From Rhodocyclales bacterium (GTDB lineage: Bacteria > Pseudomonadota > Gammaproteobacteria > Burkholderiales > Rhodocyclaceae), in NCBI GenBank assembly GCA_016235165.1, contig JACRLX010000043.1, positions 1 through 64,000 of the forward strand: a stretch of 64,000 nt of DNA, given 5' to 3'. The notes under the pieces were generated by a model. The model had not been told where the DNA came from. It saw only the letters and a list, made by a program, of their open reading frames with translations, and ran no database searches. The first letter of the stretch is position 1. Every line of letters starts with the position of its first letter. Positions 2,861 to 54,877 of this stretch are shown here, piece by piece. Made by a program: the position numbers and the translations under genes.

Positions 2861-2898
2861 AGCTCTCACTCCTTGTAGTTGATATTTACTTCCAAACC

Positions 2899-4476: not shown

Positions 4477-4504
4477 TGACTCAGATCTTCATCTTGGGAG
4501 AGGG

Positions 4505-5566: not shown

Positions 5567-5878
5567 TCGACTCACTCCTTAATGGTTTTAAAGCGATGGC
5601 CGTTTTTCGAAAGAGAAAGAGGGACCGTAGGGATGAAGAAATCCAAAGACGTGCTACGCGCCCGATAGCGCCGGAATTCATCGATCCAGTTTCAGGTCTC
5701 CTCCAAACATTTGCCCTGCAGTAGCAGTTAGCAACGCTTGCTTCACTCTTTCGATGCTGGGTGCTTTCAGCCCAACTCTTTTATGGGACGAGAGTGTAGG
5801 AGGGGCAGCGCGATATCCGAAAGATGATAAATTAGTTAAAGTGATCATAAATAGTTATCACGTGAATCGGAGGGGAGT
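5567..5878. promoter_or_regulatory. Divergent intergenic region, asst-like/lysR
   Basis: This gap of about 310 bp separates the minus-strand transporter/oxidoreductase unit from lysR and must hold both promoters. No ORF in it looks coding. The lysR-proximal end is AT-rich and carries the dyad listed separately. Confidence 0.6.
5841..5861. promoter_or_regulatory. LysR-type operator, GTGAT-N11-ATCAC
   Basis: A perfect 5-bp dyad GTGAT/ATCAC has an 11-base spacer and fits the T-N11-A rule for LysR-type regulators exactly. It ends 18 bases before the lysR start and overlaps its presumed core promoter. That position fits autorepression plus activation of the divergent unit. Confidence 0.6.
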
Positions 5879-6775
5879 ATGAAGCTCAGCAACCTAAGAG
5901 GATTTCTCGCAGTCGTCGAACAAGGAAGCATTCGCGCCGCTGCTCGCTCGCTTGGAATGTCGCAACCTGCTCTGACAAAGAGCATTCGACAGTTGGAAGA
6001 CGAGCTGGCCGTCCAGCTTGTACAGCGAACAACCAGAGGTGTTATCCCGACAAAATTTGGCGATGCCTTACGCCAACGAGTCCACTTGATCTCTGGCGAG
6101 CTCCGCAAAGCTGTTGAGGAGATTGAACAGATGCGGGGAAACATGGTGGGTGAAGTAGCGTTTGGTGTTTCGCCATCGGCCGCGATACGGCTAATTCCTG
6201 AAGCTCTGCAGAACTTCCGACGCCAACACCCGAAAGTAAGCATTCGTATTGTCGATGGTCTGTATCCAGCCGTTCTGAGAAGTGTTCGAAATGGGAATCT
6301 CGATTTTGTCGTAGGTCCATTACCAAGCGAGCTTCCAGGTAATGAGTTTGCGTCACAAACGCTTTACAAGAACGAGCTGGTTGTAGCGGTCAGGGAAGGT
6401 AATCCACTGTCACGTGCCACGTCGCTTAAACAGCTCTTGGATGCTCATTGGATCTTCACCGGCCTCGCAGGAAGTCCCGGCATGGCCGTTGAACAGACGT
6501 TTGTCCAAAACAACCTGACTCCACCCAAGAGCCTATTGGAGTCCGAGTCTTTTACGGCATTGATCGCACTTATCGTGTCATCTGACTACATTTGCCTTCT
6601 TCCGCGCCAACTTGTAGAACTTCCACAAATGAAAGGGATTCTCCGCAGAGTTGCTATAAAGGAATTCGCTGCACACTCTGAAGTAGGTCTAATCATGCGG
6701 GCTGATTCACCACTAACGCCTGCCGCACAAAAGTTGATCACTCACATACAGCGAGTTGCAAGTAGGTTGTCTTAG
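5879..6775 (+). CDS. LysR-family transcriptional regulator
   Basis: DNA-binding regulator of 298 residues, typical for the family. The winged helix-turn-helix occupies residues 1-60 (FLAVVEQGSIRAAARSLGMS), with a linker helix after it and a two-lobed effector domain from about 90. ATG 5879 has GGAGGGG four bases upstream. It is transcribed divergently from the ASST/GMC/ABC-importer unit, which it most likely controls in response to the imported or processed compound. A T-N11-A dyad lies just upstream. Base composition is lower in GC than in the flanking core genes, as for the divergent unit. Confidence 0.93.
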   Translation: MKLSNLRGFLAVVEQGSIRAAARSLGMSQPALTKSIRQLEDELAVQLVQRTTRGVIPTKFGDALRQRVHLISGELRKAVEEIEQMRGNMVGEVAFGVSPSAAIRLIPEALQNFRRQHPKVSIRIVDGLYPAVLRSVRNGNLDFVVGPLPSELPGNEFASQTLYKNELVVAVREGNPLSRATSLKQLLDAHWIFTGLAGSPGMAVEQTFVQNNLTPPKSLLESESFTALIALIVSSDYICLLPRQLVELPQMKGILRRVAIKEFAAHSEVGLIMRADSPLTPAAQKLITHIQRVASRLS

Positions 6776-6890
6776 CGCTTTGCAAAATCGCAAATCAGCC
6801 TGCCATGACTCAATTCTGCCATTGCCACTCCCTTCGTAATTTCCGAAAATCATCACCTCAATGCTCCCGGCAATTTGATTGGCATGAGTA

Positions 6891-7640
6891 ATGACCCACA
6901 CTCAGTGCGCATGGCCAAAAAGCAAAGCACTGCACTGGAAGGATCCCCAGCCGCCTACCTACTCGTCGCGGTCGTACGGACCCGCTGACGTGCGCGAAGC
7001 GATGCGTCAGGCGCTGCGGGGCGAGGCGGCACGAATCGGAACGCCGGATGGTGAGAACAGCGGCATGGCCGATCGGAAGTTTGCTGCCATGAGCGCGCTG
7101 CATCGGCTCGATACGGCGAGCTACGTACCGGGAGGCTCAGACGAGGGCGACCAGCCGACCGTCGAATACGTGCCCCCTGCTGACGAAGCGTGGCTACGCG
7201 CCGAACTCTAGAAGAAGCCGCAGCGCGGCGGTGTCGAGGTTGCGATTCGCGGGCAACACACACATGCCCTCACCGAACCACGCTGTCACGCGCAGCTTTT
7301 CGAGCAGGGCGAGCGTTGGGCGACACGCGACGCCTCGGCGTCGCAAGCTGATCCAGACAAGGCCGCGGAGGAGTGGATCGAGCGCTTCCGACGCGGTTCA
7401 TCGTCGCCGCAATGGTGATGCGCGATGGTTCGCTGGAGCTGAAGGCTGCATAGGGTAGTTGGGCGCGAACGCAACTGGCAGAAGCTGCGATGCGCGAATC
7501 GGATGACTGCGGGTTCGCGAAGCAACTGCCATACAACGCGTCCGGGATCGCTGTCATAGGGCTCCTGGCCGCATACCGCGACGGTCTTCGCACCGCGGAT
7601 TCACGTGGCCGCCGCTCGGCCATTCCCAGCCACATTGACA
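6891..7640 (+). pseudogene. Decayed gene of unknown function
   Basis: A coding-like reading frame runs from about 6891 but is broken. An in-frame TAG at 7209-7211 is followed directly by 66 further plausible codons (KKPQRGGVEVAIRGQ onwards) to a TGA near 7417. A frame change near 7390 then continues as RFIVAAMVMRDGSLELKAA, a second stop, and a last stretch with FAKQLPYNASGIAVIGLL and an AYRDG segment. Several stops and at least one frameshift in GC-rich, amino-acid-like sequence indicate a gene in decay, perhaps the C-terminal part of a larger protein. I do not recognise the family. It lies at the boundary between the lower-GC LysR block and the following hydrolase. Confidence 0.4.
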
Positions 7641-7645
7641 AACGC

Positions 7646-8650
7646 TTACGGTAACAGCGTGGCCTCGCCCCGGCACCTCGCATGCGACGGCATCCCTCGA
7701 CCCAACCGCTGGCTCCGAACTGGTATCACCATCAGATCTTTGCCTACAATAATCCGTCCCGAGAAATGCTTGCGTATACCCTCCGTCCACTCGTCATCGG
7801 TGATCGACGGATCATCTCCGGGAACAAAATGTGACAACACAAGGGTCTTCACGCCAGCGGCTACTGCGACCCTTCCAACATCCTCCGTGGCAGTATGGCT
7901 AGCCAGTTGGTGTTCGCGCATGGTGGCTGCGTTGGGCACACGCTGTAGCAGCTGCTGCAGCCCTGGGAGGTAAAGTGCCTCGTGCACCAGCACGTCGGCG
8001 CCCATAGCCAATTCAATCAGCTCAGGGGAATAAGTAGTATCCCCGGAGACCACCACGGAGCCCTCCCGTGTATCGAAGCGGAAGGCGTACGAATGATGAA
8101 TTGGCGGGTGACGGACGCGGGTTGCTGTCACCCTCACTTGGTCGTTCTGCATGACCAGACCTGGCCTGTCGAATTCGTGGGCAACGACCAGTTCGCGCAG
8201 ATCGACACGCCCCTCATCCTTGACGCGTATGTCCACGTCGTATGCTGCATAGTCAAGAAACGCCTTGGCGATCTCCTTTATCGGTGGCGGCCCATAGGCT
8301 TCGACCGGCGTCTTCAGTCCCGCGGCCCACGCGTTGTAGATGAGGGGCCCGAGATCAATGTTGTGATCCGAGTGGTGATGCGTGATGAAGATATAGCGAA
8401 GCATATTGGGCGGCACGCCCGCACGCTGCAACTGCATGCTCGTGCCGTAGCCGCAATCCACGACGTACGGCACGCCACCCAGGAGGAGCAGAGTGGATGG
8501 ATTCTTGCGCCCCTCCGATACGATACGTGGACCGCCTTTTGTTCCAAGCAAGATAATCCGGGCATCCCGCTCCGTTGTGCTCTGTACAGAGGTACCGTCC
8601 TTGGACGCGCTCCTGCCGGCGCGACTCGCCAACTCCTTAATGTCCGTCAT
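7646..8650 (-). CDS. MBL-fold metallo-hydrolase, RNase Z/arylsulfatase-like
   Basis: This 334-residue enzyme has a metallo-beta-lactamase fold. The zinc motif HxHxDH is at residues 91-96 (THHHSDHN), a further ligand region at SGDTTYSPEL and a distal histidine in VLSHFVPGD. The layout (LLGTKGGPR start, short YGPPP segment after the motif) matches the RNase Z-like branch, which also contains arylsulfatases of the Pseudoalteromonas AtsA kind. ATG 8650 has AAAGGAGAAG upstream. The domain should end at KDLMVI; the last 25 or so residues look like read-through into decayed DNA. It is 63 bp after the sulfatase on the same strand, which suggests a shared transcript. It is not housekeeping RNase Z by context. 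Confidence 0.8.
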   Translation of the reverse strand: MTDIKELASRAGRSASKDGTSVQSTTERDARIILLGTKGGPRIVSEGRKNPSTLLLLGGVPYVVDCGYGTSMQLQRAGVPPNMLRYIFITHHHSDHNIDLGPLIYNAWAAGLKTPVEAYGPPPIKEIAKAFLDYAAYDVDIRVKDEGRVDLRELVVAHEFDRPGLVMQNDQVRVTATRVRHPPIHHSYAFRFDTREGSVVVSGDTTYSPELIELAMGADVLVHEALYLPGLQQLLQRVPNAATMREHQLASHTATEDVGRVAVAAGVKTLVLSHFVPGDDPSITDDEWTEGIRKHFSGRIIVGKDLMVIPVRSQRLGRGMPSHARCRGEATLLP

Positions 8651-8713
8651 CGCTCTTCTCCTTTCGTGGTTGTGGCTACCAGCAATGGGAGGCGTCCTTC
8701 AGCCCTGTTCACG

Positions 8714-10276
8714 TCACCAGGCACCGAAAAAAACGCCGGCGCGCTTGTGCCCGGCTGTCCCCGCCTCGACCTGCTCCAACGTGACTGTCGTGCGCCGCTT
8801 GCGGGTCGCGAGCCAATCGAACAGCCGTTCGCGCATCTGTCGGCGAATCTCCTCGTACGCCGGGTTTGCGCCAAGATCGGCGAACTCGCCCGGGTCCGCT
8901 GTCAGGTCGAAGAGTTGTGGGCGGAACCCCTCCCAGTGCACGTACTTCCAGTCGTCGGTGCGAACCATCCAGGCGCGGCACTCGTCCGGCTTGCGTCCGA
9001 GGATTAGGCGCGCCTCACGGTACGCATAGTCGAGCTCCGCGAACACTGCGTCGCGCCAATGCTCGACCGGCTGGCCGCGCGTAAGCGGCAGCAGCGAGTG
9101 CCCCTCGACCCGATGCCAAGGCACCGGCACGCCGAGCGCCTCTAGAAAGGTCGGCACCGCATCGATACCTTCGGCGAACCTCATTTCCACGGTGCCGCGG
9201 GTCGCATCCGCATCCGGATGCGGGTCGTAGACGATCAATGGCACACGCAGTACTGCGTCGTAGAACTGCTCCTTCTCGCCGAGCCAGTGGTCGCCCAGGA
9301 AATCGCCGTGATCGGCGGCAAACAGGATCAATGTGTCTTTCCAGCGCCCTGTCTCTTCTAGCAAGTCCCAAAGCCGGCCAAGGTGGTCGTCAAGTTGCTT
9401 GATCAGGCCTTGGTAGGCCGGCCGCACTTTCCCGATCACCTCGTCGCGCATGAAGTTCGCGCATTCCTCGTGTTGGCGGTAGGCGGCGAGCACCGGGTGC
9501 GGATTAACCAGCTCGCACGGGTCGCGGTGCACGGGCAGGCAGGCCTTCAGGCCGTATATCGCGTGGTAAGGTGCAGGCGCCATATATGGCCAGTGGGGTT
9601 TCACGTACGAGAGGTGTAGGACCCAGGGAGCATCACCCTGGGTCCGAACAAAACGGATCGCTTGGTCGGTCATATATGCAGTCTCGGAGTGCTCCTCCTT
9701 CACGCGCGCCGGCAGATGGACATTGCGCATGTTCCAGCCGCATACAATCTGCCCGTTCTCATCCATGGCCGAGATCACGAAATCGGTCCACGGGTCGGCG
9801 CTCTCATAGCCGTGCACGCGCAGGAAGTCTGGGTAGCCGCTTTCTCTGCCCGGCGGGTGATGCCCATCGTAACGATCGATTTCCTCGAAATGGCCGCGCC
9901 GCAGGAGCGTGCCGAGCTCGTTGTCGCCCTCTATTTCGAGCCGCGCAAGCCCGCGCGCGTCCGGCATCACATGGGTCTTGCCAGCGAGCGCGAGCTTCAG
10001 CCCGGCGTCGCGCAGATATTCACCGAACGTCGGCTCGCCAATTGACAGCGGCACGCGGTTCCAGGTCGCACCGTGGCTCGCCACGTAGCGGCCGGTGTAG
10101 AAGGACATGCGCGAGGGCCCGCATACGCCCGACTGCACAAACGCGCGCTCGAAGAGCACGCCGCGCTCGGCAAGGCGGTCGATGTTGGGCGTCTCGAGTC
10201 GCGGATGACCGTAACAGGACAGATGGTCCGCCCGCAGTTGGTCGCACATGATGAACAGAATGTTTCTGACACTCAT
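8714..10276 (-). CDS. Type I sulfatase (formylglycine-dependent), choline-sulfatase-like
   Basis: Alkaline-phosphatase-fold sulfatase of about 520 residues that should hydrolyse a sulfate ester. Cys52 in CGPSRMSFYTGR is the C-x-P-S-R site converted to formylglycine. The metal site is CDQLRADHLS near the start and ADHGDFLGDH in the middle. No signal peptide is seen, so it would work in the cytoplasm on an imported ester. ATG 10276 (MSVRNILF) is chosen because the family begins there; upstream frame extends to 10348 without a better ribosome site. No anaerobic or aerobic sulfatase-maturase gene is in the window. It is divergent from an IclR regulator. The family also contains phosphonate monoester hydrolases, so substrate is uncertain. 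Confidence 0.88.
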   Translation of the reverse strand: MSVRNILFIMCDQLRADHLSCYGHPRLETPNIDRLAERGVLFERAFVQSGVCGPSRMSFYTGRYVASHGATWNRVPLSIGEPTFGEYLRDAGLKLALAGKTHVMPDARGLARLEIEGDNELGTLLRRGHFEEIDRYDGHHPPGRESGYPDFLRVHGYESADPWTDFVISAMDENGQIVCGWNMRNVHLPARVKEEHSETAYMTDQAIRFVRTQGDAPWVLHLSYVKPHWPYMAPAPYHAIYGLKACLPVHRDPCELVNPHPVLAAYRQHEECANFMRDEVIGKVRPAYQGLIKQLDDHLGRLWDLLEETGRWKDTLILFAADHGDFLGDHWLGEKEQFYDAVLRVPLIVYDPHPDADATRGTVEMRFAEGIDAVPTFLEALGVPVPWHRVEGHSLLPLTRGQPVEHWRDAVFAELDYAYREARLILGRKPDECRAWMVRTDDWKYVHWEGFRPQLFDLTADPGEFADLGANPAYEEIRRQMRERLFDWLATRKRRTTVTLEQVEAGTAGHKRAGVFFGAW

Positions 10277-10343
10277 CGGAATCGGCGTGTATCCATTTCC
10301 TCTGAATGAAATCAGAAATAGGAGTAACCGAAAACAGGGAGGG

Positions 10344-10356
10344 TTCACCTAGTGAA
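10344..10356. promoter_or_regulatory. Possible IclR operator TTCAC-CTA-GTGAA
   Basis: A perfect dyad with 5-bp arms and a 3-base centre lies in the 128-bp space between the divergent sulfatase and IclR genes. Its place suits an operator for the adjacent IclR protein. Arms are short, so chance is possible. Confidence 0.4.
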
Positions 10357-10404
10357 ACGTAAGCATTAATATGCGGATCAAACAAACTTCCCGACAGGAA
10401 CATC

Positions 10405-11196
10405 TTGGTAAAGAACATCACCGCGCTCGCCCGCGGGCTTCAAGTCGTTGAAACACTGCAAGAGACCGGGCCGATTTCATTGGCCGGGTTGCAGTTACAG
10501 ACTGGGCTGCCCAAGGCAACGCTGTTGCGTATTTTGAGAACTCTTGCGGAGCAGGGCTGGGTATTCCGCGGATTGGGAGACGACCGTTATCGACTACGCG
10601 CCGAATTGCGGATTCGCCATCAGGAGCCTAGCCGCCATGAGTATCTGATCGAGCGAGCCGGCCCGATTCTGGAAGGCTTGCAGGAACATACCGGCTGGCC
10701 GTCCGCGATTGCAGTACGCGAGCGATATCGTATGCACATTCTAGAGTCGACCGCACGCACACTGAGCCTACAACTGAACTACCCGGTCATCGGGTTCCAG
10801 GTTCATTTCCCGTGGTCGGCGCTGGGCCGGGTTTACCTTGCGTACTGTCCTGATTCCGAGCGCGAGGAGATTGTCTCCAACCTGTCCCGCTCAAGTGATC
10901 CACGGGATCGCATTGTCGACGCACCCGGCTGGGTTGATCGACTACTGCGGGAGATCCGGGATCGAGGCTATGGCACCCGACTGCCCAGATACTGGGTACA
11001 TCCGGATGCCCCATCGGAGCCGCTCAATGCGGTTGCAGTTCCCGTGATGTCTGGCGGCCAAATCGTCGCAACCTTCAACATGGTTTGGCTCGCCAACGCG
11101 ATGAGTCTCGAAACCGTGGAGCGGGAGCATCTACCCTTCCTGCGGAACGCAGCGCGAACACTTGGTGAGAGTGTCGTTATCGAAAGCGCACTGTGA
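10405..11196 (+). CDS. IclR-family transcriptional regulator
   Basis: Regulator of 263 residues. The N-terminal winged helix domain is at about residues 1-65 (GLQVVETL, then LQLQTGLPKATLLRILRTL). The ligand-sensing IclR C-terminal domain follows, with VHFPWSALGRVYLAYC and a closing NMVWLANAM segment. The start is TTG 10405, with AGGA 6-9 bases upstream; no ATG lies between it and the divergent promoter. IclR proteins commonly control aromatic or ester catabolism, and this one is divergent from the sulfatase/metallo-hydrolase pair, its probable target. Confidence 0.88.
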   Translation: MVKNITALARGLQVVETLQETGPISLAGLQLQTGLPKATLLRILRTLAEQGWVFRGLGDDRYRLRAELRIRHQEPSRHEYLIERAGPILEGLQEHTGWPSAIAVRERYRMHILESTARTLSLQLNYPVIGFQVHFPWSALGRVYLAYCPDSEREEIVSNLSRSSDPRDRIVDAPGWVDRLLREIRDRGYGTRLPRYWVHPDAPSEPLNAVAVPVMSGGQIVATFNMVWLANAMSLETVEREHLPFLRNAARTLGESVVIESAL

Positions 11197-11777
11197 GCGA
11201 CGCGGAGGCGATTGAGCGTCTGCACCGCTCCGCATCCGGGACGTACGCCCTAGCCTTTCATGCCAGTCTGCTCGCGACCCACTGGATGTGGATGACCAGT
11301 TGTGGGGCAGCCGGCGCAAGAGGAGAGTACAGGCCCGAAGCGCGCTCATTGGCTGCATTGGAGCAGACTGCGGCCGTTCGTTCCGCGGGTGCTTAACGAC
11401 CACTCCGGCCGATCAGTTTGAATTGCCACTTTGGCAGGTCTCGAAGTACATCGGTCATTTGAATGGCTGCTTTATGGAAACATCGTGCGGCAGCTTGTGG
11501 CCGCTTGCAGCCATCACACCTCCACAGCCCAAGGCCGGGTGGGCGCCGGGTGCCGCCGATTTGGCGGACGCCGCCGCGAGGAGCCGTGTCAGGGGTAGTC
11601 CGCCGGCGATGTCCGACGACGCTGCCGGCCTCATCGGCAGCGGCTAGTTTCGCCGGCGGCCTGGCGCGGCCCCGCAGCAAGGGAACCCGCAGGGCGGGAG
11701 CCCATGAGGCGGCACCCGGCGTCTGCCCGGCCGAGCCCGTGAGTGAAGGTTGCCCCTCCCGCTACGCCCAGCGCCGA
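11197..11777. other. Intergenic region, no supported gene
   Basis: About 580 bp separate iclR from the convergent toxin gene. A 67-codon frame starting GTG 11193 overlaps the iclR stop but has no recognisable features. Several short frames on both strands between 11390 and 11780 look like random GC-rich DNA. One copy of the dispersed repeat sits at its right end. Confidence 0.4.
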
Positions 11778-44410: not shown

Positions 44411-45796
44411 ATGACTACTAACGAGCCTCCGTCCGCCTGGTCCGGACGCTTTTCCGAACCGGTTTCCGATCTGGTGAAGCGCTACACCGCGTCAGTGTTC
44501 TTCGACCAGCGAATGTGGCGGCAGGACATACGCGGCTCACTGGCCCACGCGCGCATGCTCGCCCGCCAGAACATCATTTCCGGCGCCGATCTGGCCGCAA
44601 TCGAGCATGGCATGGCCGCCATATCGGAAGAAATCGAGGCCGGCAGGTTCAATTGGAACCTCGATGACGAGGACGTACACCTCAACATCGAAAAGCGCCT
44701 TACCGTACTGGTTGGCGACTCGGGCAAGCGTCTGCATACCGGACGTTCGCGCAACGACCAGGTGGCGACCGACATCCGCCTCTGGCTGCGCGACACGATG
44801 GACGGTATTGACCAACTGTTGCAAAAGCTTCAGGCGGCGCTGCTGGACCTGGCCGAAACACACGCGGAAACGCCCATGCCGGGCTTTACCCATCTGCAGG
44901 TAGCCCAGCCTGTCACTTTCGGTCACCATCTGCTGGCCTATGTCGAAATGCTGGGGCGCGACCGCAGTCGCTTTGCCGATTGCCGCCGGCGCGCCAATCG
45001 GCTTCCCTTGGGCGCGGCGGCGCTGGCGGGAACCACTTTTCCCATCGACCGCGAATTCGTGGCCCGGGAGCTTGGATTCGACGGCGTTTGCGAGAATTCG
45101 CTCGATGCCGTTTCGGACCGGGATTTCGCCATCGAGTTCTGTGCCGCGGCCTCGCTGGTCATGACGCATGTGTCGCGCTTTTCCGAAGAGCTGATTCTCT
45201 GGATGAGCCCACGAGTGGGCTTCATCGACCTTGCCGATCGCTTCTGCACCGGCTCCTCGATCATGCCGCAGAAAAAAAATCCCGATGTTCCCGAACTGGC
45301 GCGCGGCAAAACCGGGCGTGTATTCGGCCATCTGATGGGACTGCTGACATTGATGAAGGGCCAGCCGCTGGCTTACAACAAGGACAATCAGGAAGACAAG
45401 GAACCCCTGTTCGATACCGCCGATACGCTGGTCGATACCTTGCGCATCTTTGCCGACCTGGTCCCGGGAATCTGCGTCAAGGCCGATGCCATGTCGGCCG
45501 CCTTGCGCCAGGGCTATGCCACTGCCACCGACCTGGCCGACTATCTGGTCAAGAAGGGCCTGCCCTTCCGGGACGCCCACGAAGCGGTTGCGCGTGCCGT
45601 GCGCCGCTGCGAGGCCAAGGCTTGCGACCTGCCCGATCTTGCCCTGGCGGAATTGCGCGAATTCTCGCCGCTGATCGACGACGACGTGTTTTCCGTGCTT
45701 ACCGTCACCGGCTCGCTTGGCGCCCGCAACCATGTCGGCGGCACGGCTCCGGCACAGGTACGCGCTGCCATCGCCCGGGCCAGGAAACGGCTCTGA
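44411..45796 (+). CDS. argH: Argininosuccinate lyase
   Basis: Last enzyme of arginine synthesis, splitting argininosuccinate into arginine and fumarate. The 461 residues contain [19 protein letters not shown] at the start and [13 protein letters not shown]. They continue with [20 protein letters not shown] and the fumarase-superfamily signature [16 protein letters not shown] carrying the catalytic serine. The kinase gene follows after only 3 bp, so argH, the kinase and the fructosamine-kinase-like gene are likely one transcript. Pairing arginine synthesis with a kinase has no obvious metabolic reason. Confidence 0.96.
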
Positions 45797-45799
45797 ACG

Positions 45800-47113
45800 A
45801 TGGCGACGCCGGAGCGCATCGGCAAGTACGAAATCCGATCCAGACTCGGCGAGGGCGCGACCTCCATCGTCTATCTCGGCTACGACCCCTTCGCCAAGCG
45901 CGAGGTTGCGGTCAAGGCCATCTTTCCCGAGGTTCTGCGCGACAAGGAACGGGGCAAGCTGTATCGCAACTTGCTGATGACCGAAGCCTCGCTCGCCGGC
46001 AAGCTCAACCATCCCCACATCGTACAGATTTTCGATGCGGTGCTGGGCGAGGACCAGAGCTACATCGTCATGGAGTACGTCAAGGGCGGCACGCTGGAGC
46101 CATTCTGCTCGCCCAGCACGCTGCTCCCCGTCGACCGCCTGGTGGAGATGATTTTCAAATGCACGCGGGCGCTGGATTACGCCTTTCGCGCCGGGATCAC
46201 CCATCGCGACATCAAGCCGGCCAACATTCTGCTGGCCAATCCGGCGGACAGCCCCGACCATGTCGGCGGCGACATCAAGATTTCCGATTTCGGCGCGGCG
46301 ATGATGACGGGCGCCGATCAGACGCGTACCCAGGTTTCGGGGGTCGGCTCGCCGGCCTACATGTCGCCGCAGCAGGTGCGCGATCATCCGCTCGATCACC
46401 AGACCGACATCTATTCCCTTGGCGTGGTGATGTACCAGTTGCTCAGCGGGCGGCTGCCGTTCCAGTCGACGTCCAACTACGGCATGATCTACCAGATTTG
46501 CAATACCGACCCGCCACCGCCCTCGACCTTTCGCAGCGATCTCCCGGCCAGTCTCGAAGCGGTGGTGGCGCGTGCGATGCAGAAGGAAGTCCAGGCGCGC
46601 TACCAGAGTTGGGAAGAGTTTTCCCACGATCTCGCCCAGTCGTTTCGCAACAAGCAACTCTCGGCGGACCGGCAGGGGTTTCCGGACAGCGAGAAGTTCG
46701 AGTCCTTGCGCGCCTTGCCCTTCTTCGGGGAGTTCTCGGATGTCGACCTCTGGGAGGTCGTGCGCTTCTCGCGCTGGGACGAGGTTGCGGCGGGAACCAT
46801 GATCATGCGCGATGGCGAACGCGGCGACTTTTTTGCCTTCCTCATCGACGGCGAGCTGACGGTATCGAAGAACAACCATCCGCTGGGGCTGCTCACGGCA
46901 GGCGAATGTTTTGGCGAAATGGCCATCATCCGGCGCGGCGAGCACAGTCGTGGCGCCGATGTGGTGGCACGAACCTCGGCTCGCGTGGTCACCATTCCGG
47001 CGCGGGCGCTGCAACATGCATCGGATGCCTGCCGCATGCATTTCTATCAGGGATTCCTCTCCGTCATCGCCGGCCGTCTGGCCTACGCCAACGCGCGCAT
47101 CGCCTCCCTGTGA
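45800..47113 (+). CDS. Ser/Thr protein kinase with C-terminal cyclic-nucleotide-binding domain
   Basis: Hanks-type kinase of 437 residues. The glycine loop GEGATS is at 17-22, the ATP lysine K39, and a probable alpha-C Glu62. The catalytic loop HRDIKPAN is at 135-142 and DFG at 163-165; all residues needed for catalysis are present. Residues about 302-420 form a CRP-type cNMP-binding domain whose phosphate-binding cassette is FGEMAI (371-376) with Arg384 in SRGADVV. The conserved Glu and Arg suggest cyclic nucleotide binding. No membrane helix is present. A membrane adenylate cyclase lies 1.9 kb downstream. The stop overlaps the next gene (GTGA). Confidence 0.9.
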   Translation: MATPERIGKYEIRSRLGEGATSIVYLGYDPFAKREVAVKAIFPEVLRDKERGKLYRNLLMTEASLAGKLNHPHIVQIFDAVLGEDQSYIVMEYVKGGTLEPFCSPSTLLPVDRLVEMIFKCTRALDYAFRAGITHRDIKPANILLANPADSPDHVGGDIKISDFGAAMMTGADQTRTQVSGVGSPAYMSPQQVRDHPLDHQTDIYSLGVVMYQLLSGRLPFQSTSNYGMIYQICNTDPPPPSTFRSDLPASLEAVVARAMQKEVQARYQSWEEFSHDLAQSFRNKQLSADRQGFPDSEKFESLRALPFFGEFSDVDLWEVVRFSRWDEVAAGTMIMRDGERGDFFAFLIDGELTVSKNNHPLGLLTAGECFGEMAIIRRGEHSRGADVVARTSARVVTIPARALQHASDACRMHFYQGFLSVIAGRLAYANARIASL

Positions 47114-48000
47114 CGCCGGATTGGCCCATCGTCGCCAAGCTCATCGGCGCGACCATCGGGAAGGACGTCTCAAAAGCACGGATCCGTCCCGTCCATGGCG
47201 GATCAATCCACTCCGCATGGCAAATCGAGGACGGGCCACAACGATACTTCCTCAAGACCGGCAAGGAAAAAGCAGCTCGAATGTTCGCCGCCGAAGCCGG
47301 AGGGCTCGGCGCACTGGCAGCGGCCGCCGCCATCCGCACGCCCACCGTAATCGCTTGCGGCGCCGCGGACGACTGCGCCTTCATTCTGCTGGAGTGGCTT
47401 GACCTTCAACCCCTGAACCACGCAGCGGGATCGATCCTCGGCCGAAAACTTGCGCAATTGCATCGTTGCCAAGGCGAATCCTGCGGCTGGCATGAGGACA
47501 ACTTCATCGGCGCGACGCCGCAGATCAATACGCCGCATCGGGACTGGGCGTATTTCTTCGGCATGTACCGCCTGCGCCCACAGCTCGACCTGGCAGTGGC
47601 CCGAGGTCTGGACAAGGGGCTGCACGCCAGGGGTTTGGCCATCGTCGAGCGGCTAAGCGGTTTGTTTCTCGACTACCGGCCACAGGCCAGCCTGCTGCAC
47701 GGCGACCTGTGGGCAGGCAACGTCGGTCAGCTCGCCGATGGCGAGCCCGTGATTTTCGACCCGGCGTGCTACCGGGGAGATCGCGAGGCCGACATCGCCA
47801 TGGCCGAGTTGTTCGGCGGTTTTCCCACCAGCTTTTTCGCCGCCTACCGTGAAGATTGGGGACTGGACCGCGACTATGAGCGGCGTAAGCCGCTATACAA
47901 CCTGTACCACATCCTCAATCACTACAACCTTTTTGGCGCCGCCTACCTCGGCCAGGCCGGACGCATGATCGAGGCAGTGCTGGGCGATTTGCGTCGTTAG
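47110..48000 (+). CDS. Fructosamine kinase family protein
   Basis: A 296-residue member of the FN3K/ketosamine-kinase family. Such enzymes phosphorylate sugar adducts on lysines so that they detach from damaged proteins, or act on free ribulosamines. Visible are the N-terminal VHGGSIHSAWQI, the ATP lysine region RYFLKTGKEKAARMFAAEA, the catalytic LLHGDLWAGNVG near 196-207, and FDPACYRGDREADIAMAELF. GTG 47110 is the start because it overlaps the kinase stop as GTGA. The end overlaps grxD, which is on the other strand, by 4 bp. Confidence 0.9.
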   Translation: MTPDWPIVAKLIGATIGKDVSKARIRPVHGGSIHSAWQIEDGPQRYFLKTGKEKAARMFAAEAGGLGALAAAAAIRTPTVIACGAADDCAFILLEWLDLQPLNHAAGSILGRKLAQLHRCQGESCGWHEDNFIGATPQINTPHRDWAYFFGMYRLRPQLDLAVARGLDKGLHARGLAIVERLSGLFLDYRPQASLLHGDLWAGNVGQLADGEPVIFDPACYRGDREADIAMAELFGGFPTSFFAAYREDWGLDRDYERRKPLYNLYHILNHYNLFGAAYLGQAGRMIEAVLGDLRR

Positions 48001-48317
48001 GCAGTCTTGAGCGATTCGAGCTGCTTCTGGAGTTCGCCCGCCTGGTACATCTCGGTCATGATGTCGCTGCCGCCAACGAATTCGCCATTCACATAGAGTT
48101 GCGGAATCGTCGGCCAGTTCGCGTAGTCCTTGATTCCCTGGCGCACATCCGGGTCGGCAAGCACGTCAACAGTGAGAAAATCCTTCACACCGCAGGCCTG
48201 AAGAATCTGCACCGCACGCGCCGAAAAGCCGCATTGCGGAAATTGCTTGCTGCCTTTCATGTACAGCACCACGGGATTGCCGGTAACTGTTTCGTGGATT
48301 TTTTGCTTGATATCCAT
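47997..48317 (-). CDS. grxD: Monothiol glutaredoxin Grx4/GrxD
   Basis: Monothiol glutaredoxin of 106 residues that carries Fe-S clusters with glutathione and BolA-type partners. The CGFS active site is at 29-32 (KQFPQCGFSARAVQIL). WPTIPQLYVNGEFVGGSDI gives the TIP and GG glutathione-binding elements. Length is normal. It is convergent with the fructosamine-kinase-like gene and precedes nothing on its own strand within 8 kb, so it is probably monocistronic. Confidence 0.95.
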   Translation of the reverse strand: MDIKQKIHETVTGNPVVLYMKGSKQFPQCGFSARAVQILQACGVKDFLTVDVLADPDVRQGIKDYANWPTIPQLYVNGEFVGGSDIMTEMYQAGELQKQLESLKTA

Positions 48318-48410
48318 GGGACACCCAAAATAGTTGAGTAAAAAAGTCGAGATATTCTAGCGGCAGCCAACGGGGCCGGTCAAGTATGAACACCACGTGT
48401 GCAGCGAGGC

Positions 48411-48794
48411 TTAATGCAGGATGCGCGGCATGGACAAGACGAACTCGGCAATGGCAGCCTCGAACTGCGTGCCATCCTCGGCCGTCATCTGGTAACTGCC
48501 TTTCATGGTGCCAACCGGCGTGGCCAACTGGCAGCCGCTGGTGTACTCGAAGCTCTGCCCAGGCGCCAGCAAAGGTTGATGCCCGACCACGCCAAGTCCG
48601 CGTACTTCCTGTTTCTGACCTTCGGCGTCGGTAATGATCCAGTGACGGGAAATCAACTGTGCGCTGACATTGCCGGTATTCCGGATTTCGATGGTGTAGG
48701 AGAACACATGCCGGTTGATCGCCGGATCGGACTGCTCCGCGACGTATTGCGTCGTGACCCCCACCTTGATCTCGTATTTCTTTGCTTCGGCCAT
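48411..48794 (-). CDS. apaG: ApaG protein
   Basis: Small immunoglobulin-fold protein of 127 residues. Its core carries RNTGNVSAQLISRHWIITDA and GVVGHQPLLAPGQSFEYTSG, with a closing GSYQMTAEDG segment. The biochemical role is unsettled (links to diadenosine tetraphosphate, magnesium/cobalt tolerance). ATG 48794 is chosen because the family begins MAEAKKYEI; a longer frame from TTG 48824 would add ten residues. The usual ksgA and apaH neighbours are missing. Confidence 0.9.
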   Translation of the reverse strand: MAEAKKYEIKVGVTTQYVAEQSDPAINRHVFSYTIEIRNTGNVSAQLISRHWIITDAEGQKQEVRGLGVVGHQPLLAPGQSFEYTSGCQLATPVGTMKGSYQMTAEDGTQFEAAIAEFVLSMPRILH

Positions 48795-49006
48795 AAGGGC
48801 CGCATTGAACACCAATTCTCCCAAGCGGGCAAGGCAGGCGCGGCCCCTCTATCCTGCCGGGCACCGTGGCACCTGGCCGGCGACCCGCCACGCGCCATCG
48901 ATGCCCATGATTCGATGCCCATGATTCTTGACCATTGAAGGGGATTCCGCGACACTTCGCCAATGCAATTCAATTGGCTACCGGCGCCTTGGCGCAGAAT
49001 CGTCCG

Positions 49007-50335
49007 ATGAGCAAGCTCGAATCCCCAAGACCCGGCGACAGCTTCATGGCCAGGCTGCGCAATGCCGGCATAGAAGCGCATGACAGCGAGGAGGTCAAGC
49101 TCAACAAATCGCTGTTGATGCTGGCGACCGGCCTTGCCAGCGTGGCCATCGTGCTGTGGGTGGCGATCTACTGGACATTGGGGCCGGTATTTTCCGCCAC
49201 CATGCCGCTGGTCTTCCAGCTGCTGCTGGCGGGCAACATGCTGGTCTACCTGCGCACGCGAAATTTCGACTATTTCCGCGTCAGCCAGCTCGGGCTGTTC
49301 CTGTTCCTGCCGTTTGTCGCGCAATGGAGCAGCGACATCATTTCCAGCAGCGGCGTGCTGCTCTGGGCACTGCTCGCCCCGATCGGCGCCATCCTCTGCA
49401 TCGGCGTAAGGCAGTCCGTCGGCTGGTTTGCCGCCTGGGTGATCCTCACCGCAATCTCGGGACTCGCCGACTGGTATCTGGCCGACCCGATCTTCACCCC
49501 CAAGCCCGTCGTGCCGACGCGCACCACCATCGTTTTCTTCGCCATCAACTTCATCGCCTTCTCGGTCATCATCTTCATGCTGCTGCGGCTTTCCATCGGC
49601 ATGAACCGCAAGATGCACAAGAGCCTGGAAGTTGCCCACCAACAGATCAAGATCGAACAGGAACGCTCCGAGAAGCTGCTCCTGAACATCCTGCCGGAAC
49701 CGATCGCCGACCGCCTGCGCGCCTCGGACAAAACCATCGCCGACGGCTTTGCCGACGTCACGGTGATGTTTGCCGACATCGTCAACTTCACCCAGGTCGC
49801 GGCCAACATGTCGCCCTCCCAGGTCTTTGCCATGCTGAACCGGATTTTTTCCGCATTCGACGAACTGGCGGAAGACTATGGCCTGGAAAAAATCAAGACC
49901 ATCGGTGACGCCTACATGGTTGCCGGCGGCCTCAACGAGGACCTTTCCGACTACTCCGCCGCCGTCGCCGACATGGCGATCGCCATGCGCGACCTGTTGC
50001 GGCGGGATTTTTCGATCAACGCATCCCACCTCGAAGTCCGCATCGGCATCGGCACCGGACCCATCGTGGCCGGTGTGCTGGGGAAAAAGAAATTCATCTA
50101 CGACCTGTGGGGCGATACCGTCAATATCGCCAGCCGCATTACCTCCGAAGGCGTGCCGGGCATGATCCAGTGCGACACCATGACCTACCATCGGCTGGCG
50201 GCCAACTTCGACTTCCACGAGCCGCAGACGATCTACCTCAAGGGCAAGGGCAACATGACGGTGTATCGACTGATTGGCCGCAAGGGCAGCGAGCCCCAAA
50301 CCGGGGAGCAGATCGGCCCGGCAGCGCTTTCCTGA
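49007..50335 (+). CDS. Class III adenylate cyclase, membrane-bound
   Basis: Makes cAMP from ATP. Its 442 residues start with about six membrane segments (35-195) and a short coiled-coil (205-225). The cyclase domain from about 245 has metal-binding Asp257 (FADIVNF) and Asp301. The adenine-selecting pair is Lys297 (KIKTIGD) and Asp366 (YDLWGDTVN), and the transition-state residues are Asn373 and Arg377. This Lys/Asp pair predicts ATP rather than GTP specificity. It is convergent with a histidine kinase. The nearby kinase with a cNMP-binding domain is an obvious candidate receptor, but that link is inference. Confidence 0.93.
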   Translation: MSKLESPRPGDSFMARLRNAGIEAHDSEEVKLNKSLLMLATGLASVAIVLWVAIYWTLGPVFSATMPLVFQLLLAGNMLVYLRTRNFDYFRVSQLGLFLFLPFVAQWSSDIISSSGVLLWALLAPIGAILCIGVRQSVGWFAAWVILTAISGLADWYLADPIFTPKPVVPTRTTIVFFAINFIAFSVIIFMLLRLSIGMNRKMHKSLEVAHQQIKIEQERSEKLLLNILPEPIADRLRASDKTIADGFADVTVMFADIVNFTQVAANMSPSQVFAMLNRIFSAFDELAEDYGLEKIKTIGDAYMVAGGLNEDLSDYSAAVADMAIAMRDLLRRDFSINASHLEVRIGIGTGPIVAGVLGKKKFIYDLWGDTVNIASRITSEGVPGMIQCDTMTYHRLAANFDFHEPQTIYLKGKGNMTVYRLIGRKGSEPQTGEQIGPAALS

Positions 50336-50339
50336 CAAA

Positions 50340-52064
50340 TCACTCTGGCGACGGCGGCCTCGTCGCCAGACGGAAGCTAACGCAACCGTCCCGATTCTCG
50401 GCAAGTTCCAGGCAATAGCCGGCGGTCTCGGCATGGCGGGCGGCCTGGTAAAGACCAATGCCATAACCGCTTTCCGACGACACCGGGCCAATGAACAAGG
50501 CGGCCGCGATGGCAACCGCGATGGCCGAGCCATCGTCGGTCGCCGTCAGTTCGAAACCGTCGGGCGACTGCCCAAGACGCAGCACCAGCTTGAGGCCCGG
50601 TTCGCGCAAGTGCTTTTCGGCGGCATTGCGCACCAGGTTGTCGAGCACGCCGGAATAGACCTCCATGGGCAGTTCGCCATCCAGTTCGCCTTCGCTGCGA
50701 AGTTCAACCCAGTCCAGCGCGGCCAGGCGCTGAATCTGCTCGCGCCACCATTCGCGCGCCTCGACCCGACGCAGCACCGAGCCGCCTTGCGGCGCATTGA
50801 GCTTGGCCAGCGTTTCGGCAAGGCGATCGGTAATTGCGGGCAGCTGACGGCGCAGCAGGGACTGGTATTCCGGCGAGGCCTCGGCGCCGGGCTCGATGCC
50901 GGCGGAACAAAGCGCGTTGAGCGATTGCAGCAGGTTCTTCACGTCGTGCGTCAAGCGCGCTCCGGTCTCGTGGATCGCCCGCATGTAGGAAAGTTGCCTG
51001 AGCGCCTGCGCCCGCAGCTTGTCGGCATGGAACTGCGCCAGCAACTGGGCCAGCAGGTTGTAATGCCAGATCAGGGTGGGCGACGGTGCATGCTGGGTGA
51101 ACAACACCAGGACCAGGCCGCCATGGCTGAATTCCCAGCGGCGCCCGCTGGACACTCCGAAACTGCCGCGACTGCCGCCCGCGATCCATTCGCCGCCCTT
51201 GACCCAGGGCAGGCGTTGCGCGATTTCCACGCTGGCCTTTTCGAGGAACGCGTGAGGATCTTCCTCTGCCAGGGCCAGGTTGGACAAGGCCTGCAACCAT
51301 TGTTCGACCGGCAGGCCGATCGACATCAGGTAGCGCGAGATCAGGCTGCCGATTCCCGCAAAACCGGAACGCGGATTCACCGCCAGCCCCAGCAGCATCA
51401 ACACCACGCCCGTCACCAGCAGGGTTTGCAGCAAGGCTTCGACGTAGCCGCTGCCCAGCAGCAGCATCGCCGCCAGACTGCCCAGCATCAACACCGTCAA
51501 TAGCAGGAAAATGAACATGCTATAGACGAAATCGACCACCTCGCGGACGCTATCGACTTCCTGACCCAGCGGCAACAGGGCCATCACCACCAGCAGGAAC
51601 ACCAGGCTGACGTGGCCCAGCCAGACGATTTCGACGGGCGGCTTGGCCTGCGACACCGCCAGGGGCGCCGCAAGCAGTGTCAATGCAAGCACCAGAAAGG
51701 CCAGGGCAAGCAGATAAAACAGGCGCGCCGCGCGGGCGTCATAGAGCAAGACCTTGCCGCCGACAACGCCCGCCAGCATCATGATCCACAGCGTGATCAT
51801 CCAGCCCTTGAGGTAAATGCCGGCCAGCAGGGCCACCGCCAGGACCGCCAGCAGCGACGACAGTGACAGGCGCTGACCGGTATGGACAAAGGGCTGCCAA
51901 AGGATGAACAGGCCAAGGTGGACCAGGAACAGGGTGCGCCCGAACAGCGTGTCCGGCCCCTGCCAAAGCACCACGTACAAGGCCGTAAACAGCGCCAGCA
52001 GCAAGCCGCGACGCAGGGAAATCAGACGCGCCGGGAGGGATACCAAAAGCGGGAAAGGCGCCAC
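50340..52064 (-). CDS. Membrane histidine kinase, PrsK-like orphan
   Basis: Sensor kinase with about nine to ten hydrophobic segments in the first 240 residues, then a GAF-like region. The phosphorylated histidine lies in RLTHDVKNLLQSLNAL, the HDxKN type seen in PrsK-like kinases. The C-terminal ATPase has NLVRNAAEKHL, ATDDGSAIA and SGYGIGLYQAARHAE. No response regulator adjoins. The start is unclear. GTG 52064, just before the first helix, is given here; a TTG at 52163 would add 33 residues that look non-coding. The 5' side faces the pilin promoter, so the two transcripts are divergent. Confidence 0.82.
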   Translation of the reverse strand: MAPFPLLVSLPARLISLRRGLLLALFTALYVVLWQGPDTLFGRTLFLVHLGLFILWQPFVHTGQRLSLSSLLAVLAVALLAGIYLKGWMITLWIMMLAGVVGGKVLLYDARAARLFYLLALAFLVLALTLLAAPLAVSQAKPPVEIVWLGHVSLVFLLVVMALLPLGQEVDSVREVVDFVYSMFIFLLLTVLMLGSLAAMLLLGSGYVEALLQTLLVTGVVLMLLGLAVNPRSGFAGIGSLISRYLMSIGLPVEQWLQALSNLALAEEDPHAFLEKASVEIAQRLPWVKGGEWIAGGSRGSFGVSSGRRWEFSHGGLVLVLFTQHAPSPTLIWHYNLLAQLLAQFHADKLRAQALRQLSYMRAIHETGARLTHDVKNLLQSLNALCSAGIEPGAEASPEYQSLLRRQLPAITDRLAETLAKLNAPQGGSVLRRVEAREWWREQIQRLAALDWVELRSEGELDGELPMEVYSGVLDNLVRNAAEKHLREPGLKLVLRLGQSPDGFELTATDDGSAIAVAIAAALFIGPVSSESGYGIGLYQAARHAETAGYCLELAENRDGCVSFRLATRPPSPE

Positions 52065-52155
52065 AATGAGCTTGGGCCGGCTAGGCGAGATAAGGGGAAG
52101 ACAAGGCGATTCTAGTGAGGCTTGCCAAACGTCATCTGCCAAATAGCTGACGAAC

Positions 52156-52173
52156 CTGTCCAATATTCGACAG
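52156..52173. promoter_or_regulatory. Possible PilR binding site, CTGTC-N8-GACAG
   Basis: A perfect 5-bp dyad with TGTC/GACA cores lies about 100 bp before the predicted pilin transcription start, the usual distance for an enhancer of a sigma-54 promoter. PilR sites described in other bacteria contain TGTC. Confidence 0.5.
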
Positions 52174-52289: not shown

Positions 52290-52991
52290 ATGAAATCCAG
52301 ACAAGCCGGCTTTACCCTGGTCGAAATCGCCATCGTGCTGGTCATCATCGGCCTGCTGCTGGGCGGCGTGCTCAAGGGCCAGGAACTCATCAACAGCGCC
52401 AAGGTGAAGAACTTCGCCACCGACTTCCGCAACATTCCGCTTTTCATCTATGGCTACCAGGACAAGTTTAAGGCGCTGCCGGGTGATGACTCGGCCGTCA
52501 CCACGACTCACTTGGGGACTGCGGTTGGCGGTGTAACGGTCGTCGCGGCTACGACTCCGGCATCCGGCGCCCGCGGCAACGGTGTCATCGAGGGTGCGTG
52601 GAATTCAGCCACGGAGACCGACGAATCGATCCTTTTCTGGCAGCACGTGCGGCTCGCGGGTTTGGCTGCCGGCCCAACTACTGCCCCGGCAGCGGCTGGA
52701 GTGCTGGACTTCCTGCCCAAGAACGCCGACGGCGGCTTTATTGGCATCACTAGCGGCGCCAATACTCCGGTAACAGGCATGTCTGGCACCTACATCGTTT
52801 GTTCGACCAGCATACTTGGCAAGTACGCAAAGCAACTCGACGTGACCATGGATGACGGCAATACGGCAACGGGTTCGCTCCGCGCCATCGCCAATATCAC
52901 CGCACTGAATGCTACTGTTACTGCTGCCGCTGCAGTAGCAAGCTCGGCCATAGACGACGCCACTTCCTACACCATGTGTATGTCGCTCTAA
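52290..52991 (+). CDS. Type IV prepilin-like major pilin
   Basis: A 233-residue prepilin. The leader MKSRQAG is cut by PilD after Gly7, leaving N-terminal Phe and Glu at mature position 5 (FTLVEIAIVLVIIGLLLGGV). After the alpha-1 helix, the Ala/Thr/Gly-rich globular part ends with two cysteines (YIVCSTS and YTMCMSL) that can close a D-loop. ATG 52290 has GGAG eight bases upstream. A sigma-54 promoter precedes it and a strong terminator follows, so it is a highly expressed single gene, presumably controlled by PilSR. It could also be a pseudopilin, but the regulation favours a pilus subunit. Confidence 0.85.
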   Translation: MKSRQAGFTLVEIAIVLVIIGLLLGGVLKGQELINSAKVKNFATDFRNIPLFIYGYQDKFKALPGDDSAVTTTHLGTAVGGVTVVAATTPASGARGNGVIEGAWNSATETDESILFWQHVRLAGLAAGPTTAPAAAGVLDFLPKNADGGFIGITSGANTPVTGMSGTYIVCSTSILGKYAKQLDVTMDDGNTATGSLRAIANITALNATVTAAAAVASSAIDDATSYTMCMSL

Positions 52992-53010
52992 GGTTTCAAG
53001 TAGGATTTGA

Positions 53011-53036
53011 AAGCCCGCTTCGGCGGGCTTTTTTTC
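53011..53036 (+). terminator. Intrinsic terminator after pilin
   Basis: AAGCCCGC, TTCG loop, GCGGGCTT, then TTTTT. A textbook terminator 20 bp after the pilin stop. Confidence 0.92.
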
Positions 53037-53047
53037 TGGTGCCACGG

Positions 53048-54877
53048 ATGTCACCCTCGTTCTACAACGCAACGGCCATCCTCGGCCTGGCAGCAATCTG
53101 GCTATTCGCCCATCGTTACTTCGGCATCCAGCACGATGGCCTGTTCTATGCGGTGCAGGCGCTGGCAAACAATGCACCCGCGGCCTTTGCACGCGACATT
53201 TTTTTTGCCCTCGGCTCGCAGGATGACTACAGCCTGTTCAGCCGGGTGTATGGGCAACTGATCGCGGTGCTGGGCTTGTCCGGCGCGGCGCTCGCGGGAT
53301 TGGTGGCGGCACAGCTGGCCTGGGCAGCGGCGGCCGCCGCCATGGCGCGCCAATGGCTTTCGGGGTCGGCCTTCTGGGTCGGCCTCGCTCTGGTATTCGC
53401 CCTGCCCGGCCATTACGGCTCGCAAGCAGAAGCGGCGCACGACATCCTGCGCTATGCCGAGAGCTTCCTCACCGCGCGCAGTTGGGCTGAGCCGCTGGTC
53501 CTTGCTGCTGTCGCCGCAACACTCGCGGGCCGTCGTAATCTGGCCATAGTGATGACGGTGCTGGCGCTTCTTTGCCATCCGATCATCGCCCTGCCGGGAG
53601 TCATCTTCCTCGCGGCCTGGTTGGTGCGACCCGCCGCACGCACCATACTTTCATGCGTCGTAATTGCCACGATTGCCGCGTTTCTGTTGCCTGAGATGGA
53701 TGCGGAGTGGCTGGCGGAAGTACGCCGTCGCGCCCGCTTCGTCATGCTCGACACCTGGACCTGGGGCGAGCTCCTCGAACCCCTGGCGTGGATCGGCATC
53801 CTTCTGACGGCATCGGCCGGCGCAACTGAAAAGGCACGCCTTGCCTGGCGCAGCCTGGCGCTGGCGGGTGCGACCGGCTACTACCTTGCCCTGCTCGGCA
53901 CCCTCAGCCATGCCGCCCTGCTGATCCAGACCCAACCCTGGCGTTGCCTGTGGCTGCTCAAGCTTACGGCCTTGCTGGCCCTGGTGGCGATCTTCGCCGA
54001 GCGCTGGCGGCGTTCGTCCATCGACCGCTGGCTGCTGGCGGGACTGGCCACCGCCGCGCTGACGGCGCAGACCCTCGGCGGCCCGGTGGCACTGATCCTC
54101 GCCATCCTGGCCCATCGCGCCTGGCGGCATGGGCAGGCGCCAAGCTCGCCTCGCTGGCTGCCGGCCGCCGCTTATGTGGCGCTGTCGGTCACGCTGCTGG
54201 AAACCCTGCTGGCGGTCGTCCAGCAACTCGGCTTCCTCCTGCAACGCATCGGCGAATTGCTGGCGGGCAACAGCGGGATGCCCAGGAGTGACCTTGCCGC
54301 CTACTTCCAGGGGCCACTCGCTCTGCTGCTGCCCCTTGGCATGGCCTTCCTGCTGGGCCTGCAAGCGCGGCGGCCACGGCTGGCCCTGAGCATGGCCGCG
54401 TTGGCGGCAGGCATCGCCGCAGCCGGCTGGTATCGTGCCGACGACCTCGTGCAAAGATTTGCCTATTCGTCGGGGATAGCCCGCCCCTTCGGTGACGCGA
54501 TTGCCCAAACGGACACCGTGCATTGGCAAGGCAATCTGATTTACACCTGGTTCGTCTTGCGGCAAAGCAGTTACGCCTCGCGGGAACAGGGTGCCAGCGC
54601 ACTGTTCTCGCGCGCGGCGGCGATGGAATCGGCGCGACGCCAGAAACGCATCGAAGCCTTCGATGCGGCAAGTGGCGGCGGTGCGACACCCGGCGAGCGG
54701 GAAGCGGCCTTGCGCGAACTCTGCCGCGACCCGGCGCTGGATGTTGCGATCCTCGCGCAGCCCATCGAAGGCCTCGCGACCAAGGCCTGGCCCGACCCGC
54801 TGCGCCAGGCGCCCTGGTACCTGTATCGCTGCGAGCCGCTGCGCGCCCATCTGGCGATGGCGCAAGCCACGCCGTGA
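53048..54877 (+). CDS. Polytopic membrane protein, GT-C-like
   Basis: About 609 residues with a dozen or more hydrophobic segments and a soluble C-terminal tail of about 130 residues. The early loop HRYFGIQHDGLFYAVQALA carries an acidic residue soon after the first helix, as in GT-C glycosyltransferases, but no family motif is decisive. ATG 53048 follows the pilin terminator. The gene abuts GtrA-like, FAD-enzyme and another polytopic gene (overlap GTGA with gtrA-like), which suggests surface glycan or lipid-linked sugar work. An alternative is a transporter. Function is inference. Confidence 0.7.
   Translation: MSPSFYNATAILGLAAIWLFAHRYFGIQHDGLFYAVQALANNAPAAFARDIFFALGSQDDYSLFSRVYGQLIAVLGLSGAALAGLVAAQLAWAAAAAAMARQWLSGSAFWVGLALVFALPGHYGSQAEAAHDILRYAESFLTARSWAEPLVLAAVAATLAGRRNLAIVMTVLALLCHPIIALPGVIFLAAWLVRPAARTILSCVVIATIAAFLLPEMDAEWLAEVRRRARFVMLDTWTWGELLEPLAWIGILLTASAGATEKARLAWRSLALAGATGYYLALLGTLSHAALLIQTQPWRCLWLLKLTALLALVAIFAERWRRSSIDRWLLAGLATAALTAQTLGGPVALILAILAHRAWRHGQAPSSPRWLPAAAYVALSVTLLETLLAVVQQLGFLLQRIGELLAGNSGMPRSDLAAYFQGPLALLLPLGMAFLLGLQARRPRLALSMAALAAGIAAAGWYRADDLVQRFAYSSGIARPFGDAIAQTDTVHWQGNLIYTWFVLRQSSYASREQGASALFSRAAAMESARRQKRIEAFDAASGGGATPGEREAALRELCRDPALDVAILAQPIEGLATKAWPDPLRQAPWYLYRCEPLRAHLAMAQATP

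Follow-up and report, generated by a model that had tools for sequence, protein, structure and literature searches.

A PknB-type kinase with a cyclic-nucleotide-binding domain and a nearby adenylate cyclase mark a probable junction of two signalling blocks in a Rhodocyclales genome

The stretch of DNA analysed here, which we call the window, comprises 64,000 nucleotides from a Rhodocyclales bacterium (assembly GCA_016235165.1, contig JACRLX010000043.1, positions 1 to 64,000). It carries on its plus strand a gene for a PknB-type Ser/Thr kinase with a C-terminal cyclic-nucleotide-binding (CNB) domain (45800..47113, 437 amino acids) and, downstream on the same strand, a gene for a membrane class III adenylate cyclase (49007..50335, with ATG at 49007 and TTG at 48935 as a possible alternative start). 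Their length and family scores rule out that either open reading frame (ORF) is due to chance. We consider the window to be, probably, the junction of two independent signalling blocks, linked if at all through the shared cyclic AMP (cAMP) pool of the cell, and the adjacency of kinase and cyclase to be lineage-specific. The first block would consist of argH, the kinase gene and a gene of the fructosamine-kinase family, and the second of the cyclase gene, a convergent histidine-kinase-like gene and a type IV pilin-like gene. The CNB domain would most likely bind a cyclic nucleotide via E373 and R384 and thereby alter kinase activity in either direction. A signal from the envelope or of pilus type would probably modulate the membrane cyclase, and the cAMP that its residues predict would enter the shared pool, through which any kinase response would arise, with no dedicated local pair.

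Neighbourhoods of the two genes

In the window, argH (44411..45796, plus strand; PF00206/PF14698) ends 3 bases before the kinase start, and the GTG start of the fructosamine-kinase family gene (47110..48000, plus strand; PF03881, E 1.6e-96) overlaps the kinase stop. The 1.89 kb from the kinase stop to the cyclase ATG is taken up by this gene and by grxD and apaG, both on the minus strand. Because grxD and apaG stand in between on the opposite strand, kinase and cyclase do not form one operon. We rejected the idea of a dedicated kinase-cyclase operon for this reason and because the adjacency is not conserved.

This lack of conservation became clear from 80 kinase loci, which are the best-scoring named relatives of a query built from argH-linked kinases and not a random sample. 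argH lies upstream in all 80 of them, a count that is valid for the argH-linked branch only; 69 also have grxD, 29 the fructosamine-kinase gene and 14 a nearby cyclase. Linkage of the cyclase can be judged in 64 loci, 14 being linked and 50 having at least 5.5 kb downstream and no cyclase; the other 16 are unjudgeable. When only loci with at least 5.5 kb downstream are counted, the cyclase is present in 9 of 59, and the five further linked loci have shorter flanks. In the kinase tree all 15 linked rows, with that of the window included, fall into one clade of 21 (support 99/93), together with 2 rows judged unlinked and 4 unjudged; Sulfuritalea and Rugosibacter are among the linked members that have names. 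On this midpoint-rooted tree the linked label needs three changes, a number that a single gain plus two losses would account for. The sequence-only reading had placed a cAMP-controlled circuit in one bacterial locus, and this was not supported, as a nearby cyclase is limited, among the 80 loci, to 14 in one clade, argH is the constant neighbour and the genome has 12 class III cyclase matches.

The window's own genome has 12 matches to the class III cyclase family PF00211, 22 to the CNB family PF00027 and 9 to the kinase family PF00069 (8 above the Pfam cut-off), and three genes, the window's included, combine kinase and CNB domain. With this number of possible partners, any wiring between kinase and cyclase would probably run via a shared pool. 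The two kinase-CNB paralogues lie at L066:3092-4375 and L067:3183-4493 (L and G numbers are our handles for loci and genomes), and the first adjoins a convergent FHA-domain gene. Elsewhere in this genome, L063 (C5:38000-52000) contains at about 2861-11219, on the minus strand, a cluster of CHASE2-Ser/Thr kinase, FHA, CHASE2-class III cyclase and CNB-rhodanese genes, and in L064 (C26:123500-134700), at about 7222-10517, a CHASE2-class III cyclase gene immediately precedes a Ser/Thr kinase gene of the same orientation. Both are tighter kinase-cyclase neighbourhoods than the pair in the window.

The cyclase has usual neighbours of its own. In the window, a histidine-kinase-like gene (50340..52163, minus strand), whose weak HATPase_c match is below the Pfam cut-off, is convergent with it, followed by the type IV pilin-like gene (52290..52991, plus strand; N_methyl, PF07963). 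An ORF of 633 amino acids (52976-54877) adjoins the latter and matches no Pfam family at E 0.01. The histidine-kinase-like gene is tail to tail with the cyclase in 28 of the 30 best-matching loci, window included, and convergent with it in 34 of 46 loci with longer flanks. The latter set consists of the window and 45 loci chosen from 77 cyclase-bearing genomes, none of them from the nine in which kinase and cyclase are linked; 17 of the 45 cyclase genes also belong to the 30-locus set, and three or four of the 45 are cut by contig ends. A pilin-type N_methyl ORF is near the cyclase in 38 of the 46 loci versus 6 of 80 control loci, some of which contain the cyclase block themselves, and no pilin-like ORF was detected by our own pattern in the other 8. 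This pattern misses some cases (in L188 it found one where Pfam found two), and Pfam confirmed N_methyl in the window and in two other cyclase loci that were checked. In five loci without the histidine-kinase-like gene (L211, L225, L230, L231 and L232) a pilin-like ORF directly follows the cyclase. Several papers deal with CyaB, cAMP and type IV pili in Pseudomonas aeruginosa, so that it is a reasonable guess that the cyclase block takes an envelope or pilus signal.

The kinase and the cyclase as proteins

The window kinase looks like a complete PknB-type (Hanks-type) Ser/Thr kinase and is predicted to be competent. Pfam places Pkinase (PF00069) at residues 10-270 (162 bits, E 2e-47), and the full Hanks-type (PknB-like) motif set is present, with K39, E62, HRD at 135-137, N142 and DFG at 163-165. 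These residues are invariant in the 80 argH-linked relatives, and G17 of the glycine loop is kept in 79 of them. Identity of the kinase domain to PknB/Stk1-type kinases is 33-38%, with a best fold match of Z 33.1 and a root-mean-square deviation of 1.7 over 257 residues. By sequence, PknB (153 bits) is closer than PKA or PKG, for which the PKG chains reach 105 bits with the best stretch at query 56-223, and the fold search agrees among the matches listed. A first AlphaFold model, based on an alignment of 29 close sequences, was poor, with a predicted local distance difference test score (pLDDT) of 72; the model from a 72-sequence alignment reached a pLDDT of 89.1 and a predicted template modelling score of 0.66. 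The best 50 matches of each fold search are all to the kinase domain (ranges 1-290 in one search), so that absence from them excludes no family and the CNB fold is supported by the sequence evidence.

Three other assignments of the kinase were tried and rejected. As a Stk1/PASTA kinase it scores 261 bits with NF033483 against a cut-off of 450, and the match covers residues 8-292 only. As a defence kinase it gave nothing specific, the best 25 PADLOC matches (mostly PD-T4-6, also mad6 and PglW) hitting the kinase part. For a phage origin, 50 phage records all showed less than 60% identity and none covered more than 80% of the query; the five phage matches listed fall within residues 8-310.

The CNB domain (46781..47017, plus strand) matches PF00027 at kinase residues 328-406 with 52.4 bits, well over the gathering cut-off of 27.5 (E 5e-14), and retains the Glu and Arg of the phosphate-binding cassette as E373 (46916-46918) and R384 (46949-46951), which we take to be the ribose- and phosphate-contacting residues. 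We compared 141 kinases: the 80 argH-linked ones, 11 further kinase-CNB proteins in those loci, the two paralogues from the same genome, the window kinase and 47 distant relatives from 40 loci. All 141 have the Glu and 138 have the Arg, which puts both among the most conserved CNB positions, and both are invariant in the 80 argH-linked kinases. The set reaches down to 28% identity to the window kinase, and its most distant member is one of the 3 without the Arg. Given this retention, it is a good inference that the window kinase is gated by a nucleotide. The closest solved CNB domains, by comparison with Protein Data Bank (PDB) sequences, are mostly those of PKG, PKA regulatory subunits and MlotiK1 channel chains. 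As the residue after the Arg varies (Gly in 54 of the 80 argH-linked kinases, Thr in 28 of the 47 distant relatives), we leave the ligand as a cyclic nucleotide, with cAMP and cGMP undistinguished. Tandem kinase-CNB duplicates are found 3' of argH in 8 of the 80 loci (L090, L092, L094, L098, L102, L104, L107 and L108), with Glu and Arg in both copies.

In the cyclase, Guanylate_cyc (PF00211) is matched with E 4e-54, and D257, K297, D301, D366, N373 and R377 do not vary across an alignment of 27 sequences, that of the window among them. We assume that D257 and D301 bind metal, that K297 and D366 are the ATP-type residues and that N373 and R377 are the Asn/Arg pair; with these the protein has the residue set of a class III adenylate cyclase. 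Its N-terminus has five hydrophobic windows, consistent with a membrane protein. From the catalytic residues we infer that it makes cAMP. Both proteins are thus what the sequence-only reading had made of them, a complete Hanks-type kinase with a C-terminal CNB domain and the key Glu and Arg, and 1.9 kb downstream a membrane adenylate cyclase with ATP-specific Lys/Asp. For a role in defence, the matches of the cyclase to Pycsar cyclases were weak (39 bits at best). As for the alignments, A1 is without L029, which is truncated, and A2 is without L040, L050 and L059, whose matches contain a stop; A3 holds 22 of 30 sequences, and A4 holds the window and 72 of 140 candidates.

Ligand, co-occurrence and the link between kinase and cyclase

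Several observations weigh against the reading of two independent blocks that meet in a shared cAMP pool. In five kinase-CNB genomes without class I or class III cyclases both cassette residues, Glu and Arg, are retained, so that cAMP need not be the ligand in every case, and the orthologues of kinase and cyclase co-occur above chance, a result also expected from a dedicated pair. The adjacency mostly persists in the linked clade, where 2 rows are judged exceptions. Moreover, argH is near none of the 40 distant kinase-CNB loci, and in L171 and L177, from two genomes of one genus, the kinase-CNB gene is directly upstream of a gene for a cyclase-AAA-TPR protein of about 1050 amino acids. As a class III cyclase is near only 2 of these 40 loci, neither argH nor a cyclase is a general neighbour of the kinase-CNB architecture.

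It is possible, with a probability well short of even, that what gates the kinase is not cAMP but cGMP, some other cyclic nucleotide or a nucleoside. In a class-wide sample of 274 genomes, 49 have kinase-CNB genes; at most 6 candidates per genome were scored, and 5 of 54 matches, being kinase-domain-only, were removed (G184, G326, G327, G336 and G399). Seven of the 49 lack a class III cyclase; class I is present in two of these, and the other five are without both. These five (G267, G297, G383, G390 and G409; 94-98% complete) match neither PF00211 nor PF01295, so either their kinases read another ligand or the drafts miss the cyclase gene. Five genomes of the window's own family likewise have a kinase match at 1e-80 or better and no class I or III cyclase (G047, G050, G061, G092 and G114), and a match that spans the CNB domain (5-436) was seen for G114 only. 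The shift after the Arg, from mostly Gly in the argH-linked kinases to mostly Thr in the distant ones, would also fit a different ligand, and nucleosides have been reported as ligands of trypanosome PKA (PMC10959531). On the other hand, the Glu and Arg are retained, and a class III cyclase of any kind is present in 93 of 94 family genomes with a kinase orthologue versus 42 of 56 without. At class level the counts are 42 of 49 kinase-CNB genomes versus 140 of 225 others (p 0.0014, relatedness ignored).

A dedicated local circuit, with the cyclase as sensor of a membrane signal and the window kinase as the main reader of the cAMP that this cyclase makes, seems unlikely to us. Both proteins look competent by their residues, the adjacency persists across most of one clade, and the co-occurrence that the sequence-only reading proposed to look for does exist. 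Among 150 family genomes (orthologue cut-offs: best E at or below 1e-145 for the kinase and 1e-90 for the cyclase) there are 94 with a kinase orthologue and 77 with a cyclase orthologue; 61 have both, 33 the kinase only, 16 the cyclase only and 40 neither, which gives an odds ratio of 4.6 and a Fisher p of 2e-5 when relatedness and genome size are ignored. Expressed otherwise, 61 of the 94 kinase-orthologue genomes carry the cyclase orthologue, as do 16 of the 56 others. Weaker or partial cyclase matches (G006, G058 and G068) were scored as absent, and leaving out G068 changes p from 2.1e-5 to 1.8e-5. By genus majority the counts are 28/15/9/16 (p 0.025, relatedness again ignored). The same counts also tell against a dedicated pair, since the cyclase orthologue is missing from 33 of 94 kinase genomes and the kinase orthologue from 16 of 77 genomes with the cyclase. 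In addition, the constant neighbour of the kinase in close relatives is argH and not the cyclase, apaG and grxD intervene on the opposite strand, the cyclase keeps its own company elsewhere, and the window's genome has 12 cyclase matches. Comparing contig placement by eye between two match tables, we found that kinase and cyclase share a contig in 17 of the 61 genomes that have both; in 9 of these the distance is within 5 kb (genera g1, g14, g38 and g64), and in 8 it exceeds 100 kb. In the other 44, mostly drafts, the two are on different contigs. Close to the kinase in G148 (C1:786769-789471), the cyclase orthologue is split into two parts with about 1.4 kb between them.

Domains of the CNB fold can lose the ability to bind nucleotides, and the domain could then be a ligand-free structural or dimerisation module; with the Glu retained in all 141 kinases and the Arg in 138, we consider this improbable.

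Relation to known systems

PKG is an AGC kinase, and in PKA the regulatory and catalytic subunits are separate. In this family the CNB domain lies N-terminal to the kinase domain or on a separate subunit, a layout that the window kinase, with its kinase domain at 10-270 and its CNB domain at 328-406, does not have. With PKG it shares the presence of CNB and kinase in one chain, and PKG structures (PDB 5ezr, 4rz7 and 5dyk) are top PDB matches of its CNB domain; it differs in that a PknB-type kinase domain is N-terminal and followed by one CNB domain, whereas 5ezr has four CNB stretches (63-493) before its kinase (576-731). With PKA it shares the CNB family, the difference being a kinase domain closest to PknB and one chain instead of separate subunits. 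The window kinase is therefore PKG-like in outline, yet its sequence places it outside the PKG and PKA families. The parallel with eukaryotic PKA/PKG logic drawn in the sequence-only reading survives as an analogy. Compared to Mycobacterium tuberculosis PknB and other Stk1-type kinases, the kinase domain is alike, but the window kinase has a CNB domain and is below the PASTA-kinase cut-off. The cyclase resembles other class III membrane cyclases (mammalian AC5/8/9; bacterial Cya, 7yzi) in its catalytic domain and presumed ATP-type residues, but has a single catalytic domain versus two in the mammalian enzymes, and histidine-kinase-like and pilin-like genes as neighbours.

CNB domains joined to bacterial kinases were listed in 2007 in the 'Other_bacterial' row of Kannan et al. 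(PMC2246266), a row that gives no kinase type, argH-linked family or functional test. Searching the main texts of PMC1262709 and PMC2877116 for cyclic-nucleotide mentions gave no statement on a kinase-CNB protein, and exact-term searching of open-licence PMC papers found no experimental study of one. What appears new here is the combination of a PknB-based kinase, a predicted C-terminal sensor and a link with argH that is constant in the 80 best-scoring relatives. Beyond this, we suggest only tentatively that there is a large uncharacterised family of CNB-gated PknB kinases, with an independent PKG logic and reversed domain order, of which one Rhodocyclales branch would be hard-wired to arginine biosynthesis via argH and which would use another nucleotide ligand in lineages without class I/III cyclases. 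The most prevalent bacterial cAMP/cGMP receptors are described as Crp-Fnr transcription factors (PMC10127613); if a broad family of CNB-gated Ser/Thr kinases exists, as the 49 of 274 class genomes may indicate, cyclic nucleotides could directly drive protein phosphorylation too. The argH link in Rhodocyclales would be a concrete starting point for a substrate search. Among the distant kinase-CNB proteins (L148-L187), 24 of 47 have Ser in place of the Gly of DFG, with Lys, Glu, HRD, Asn and Asp retained.

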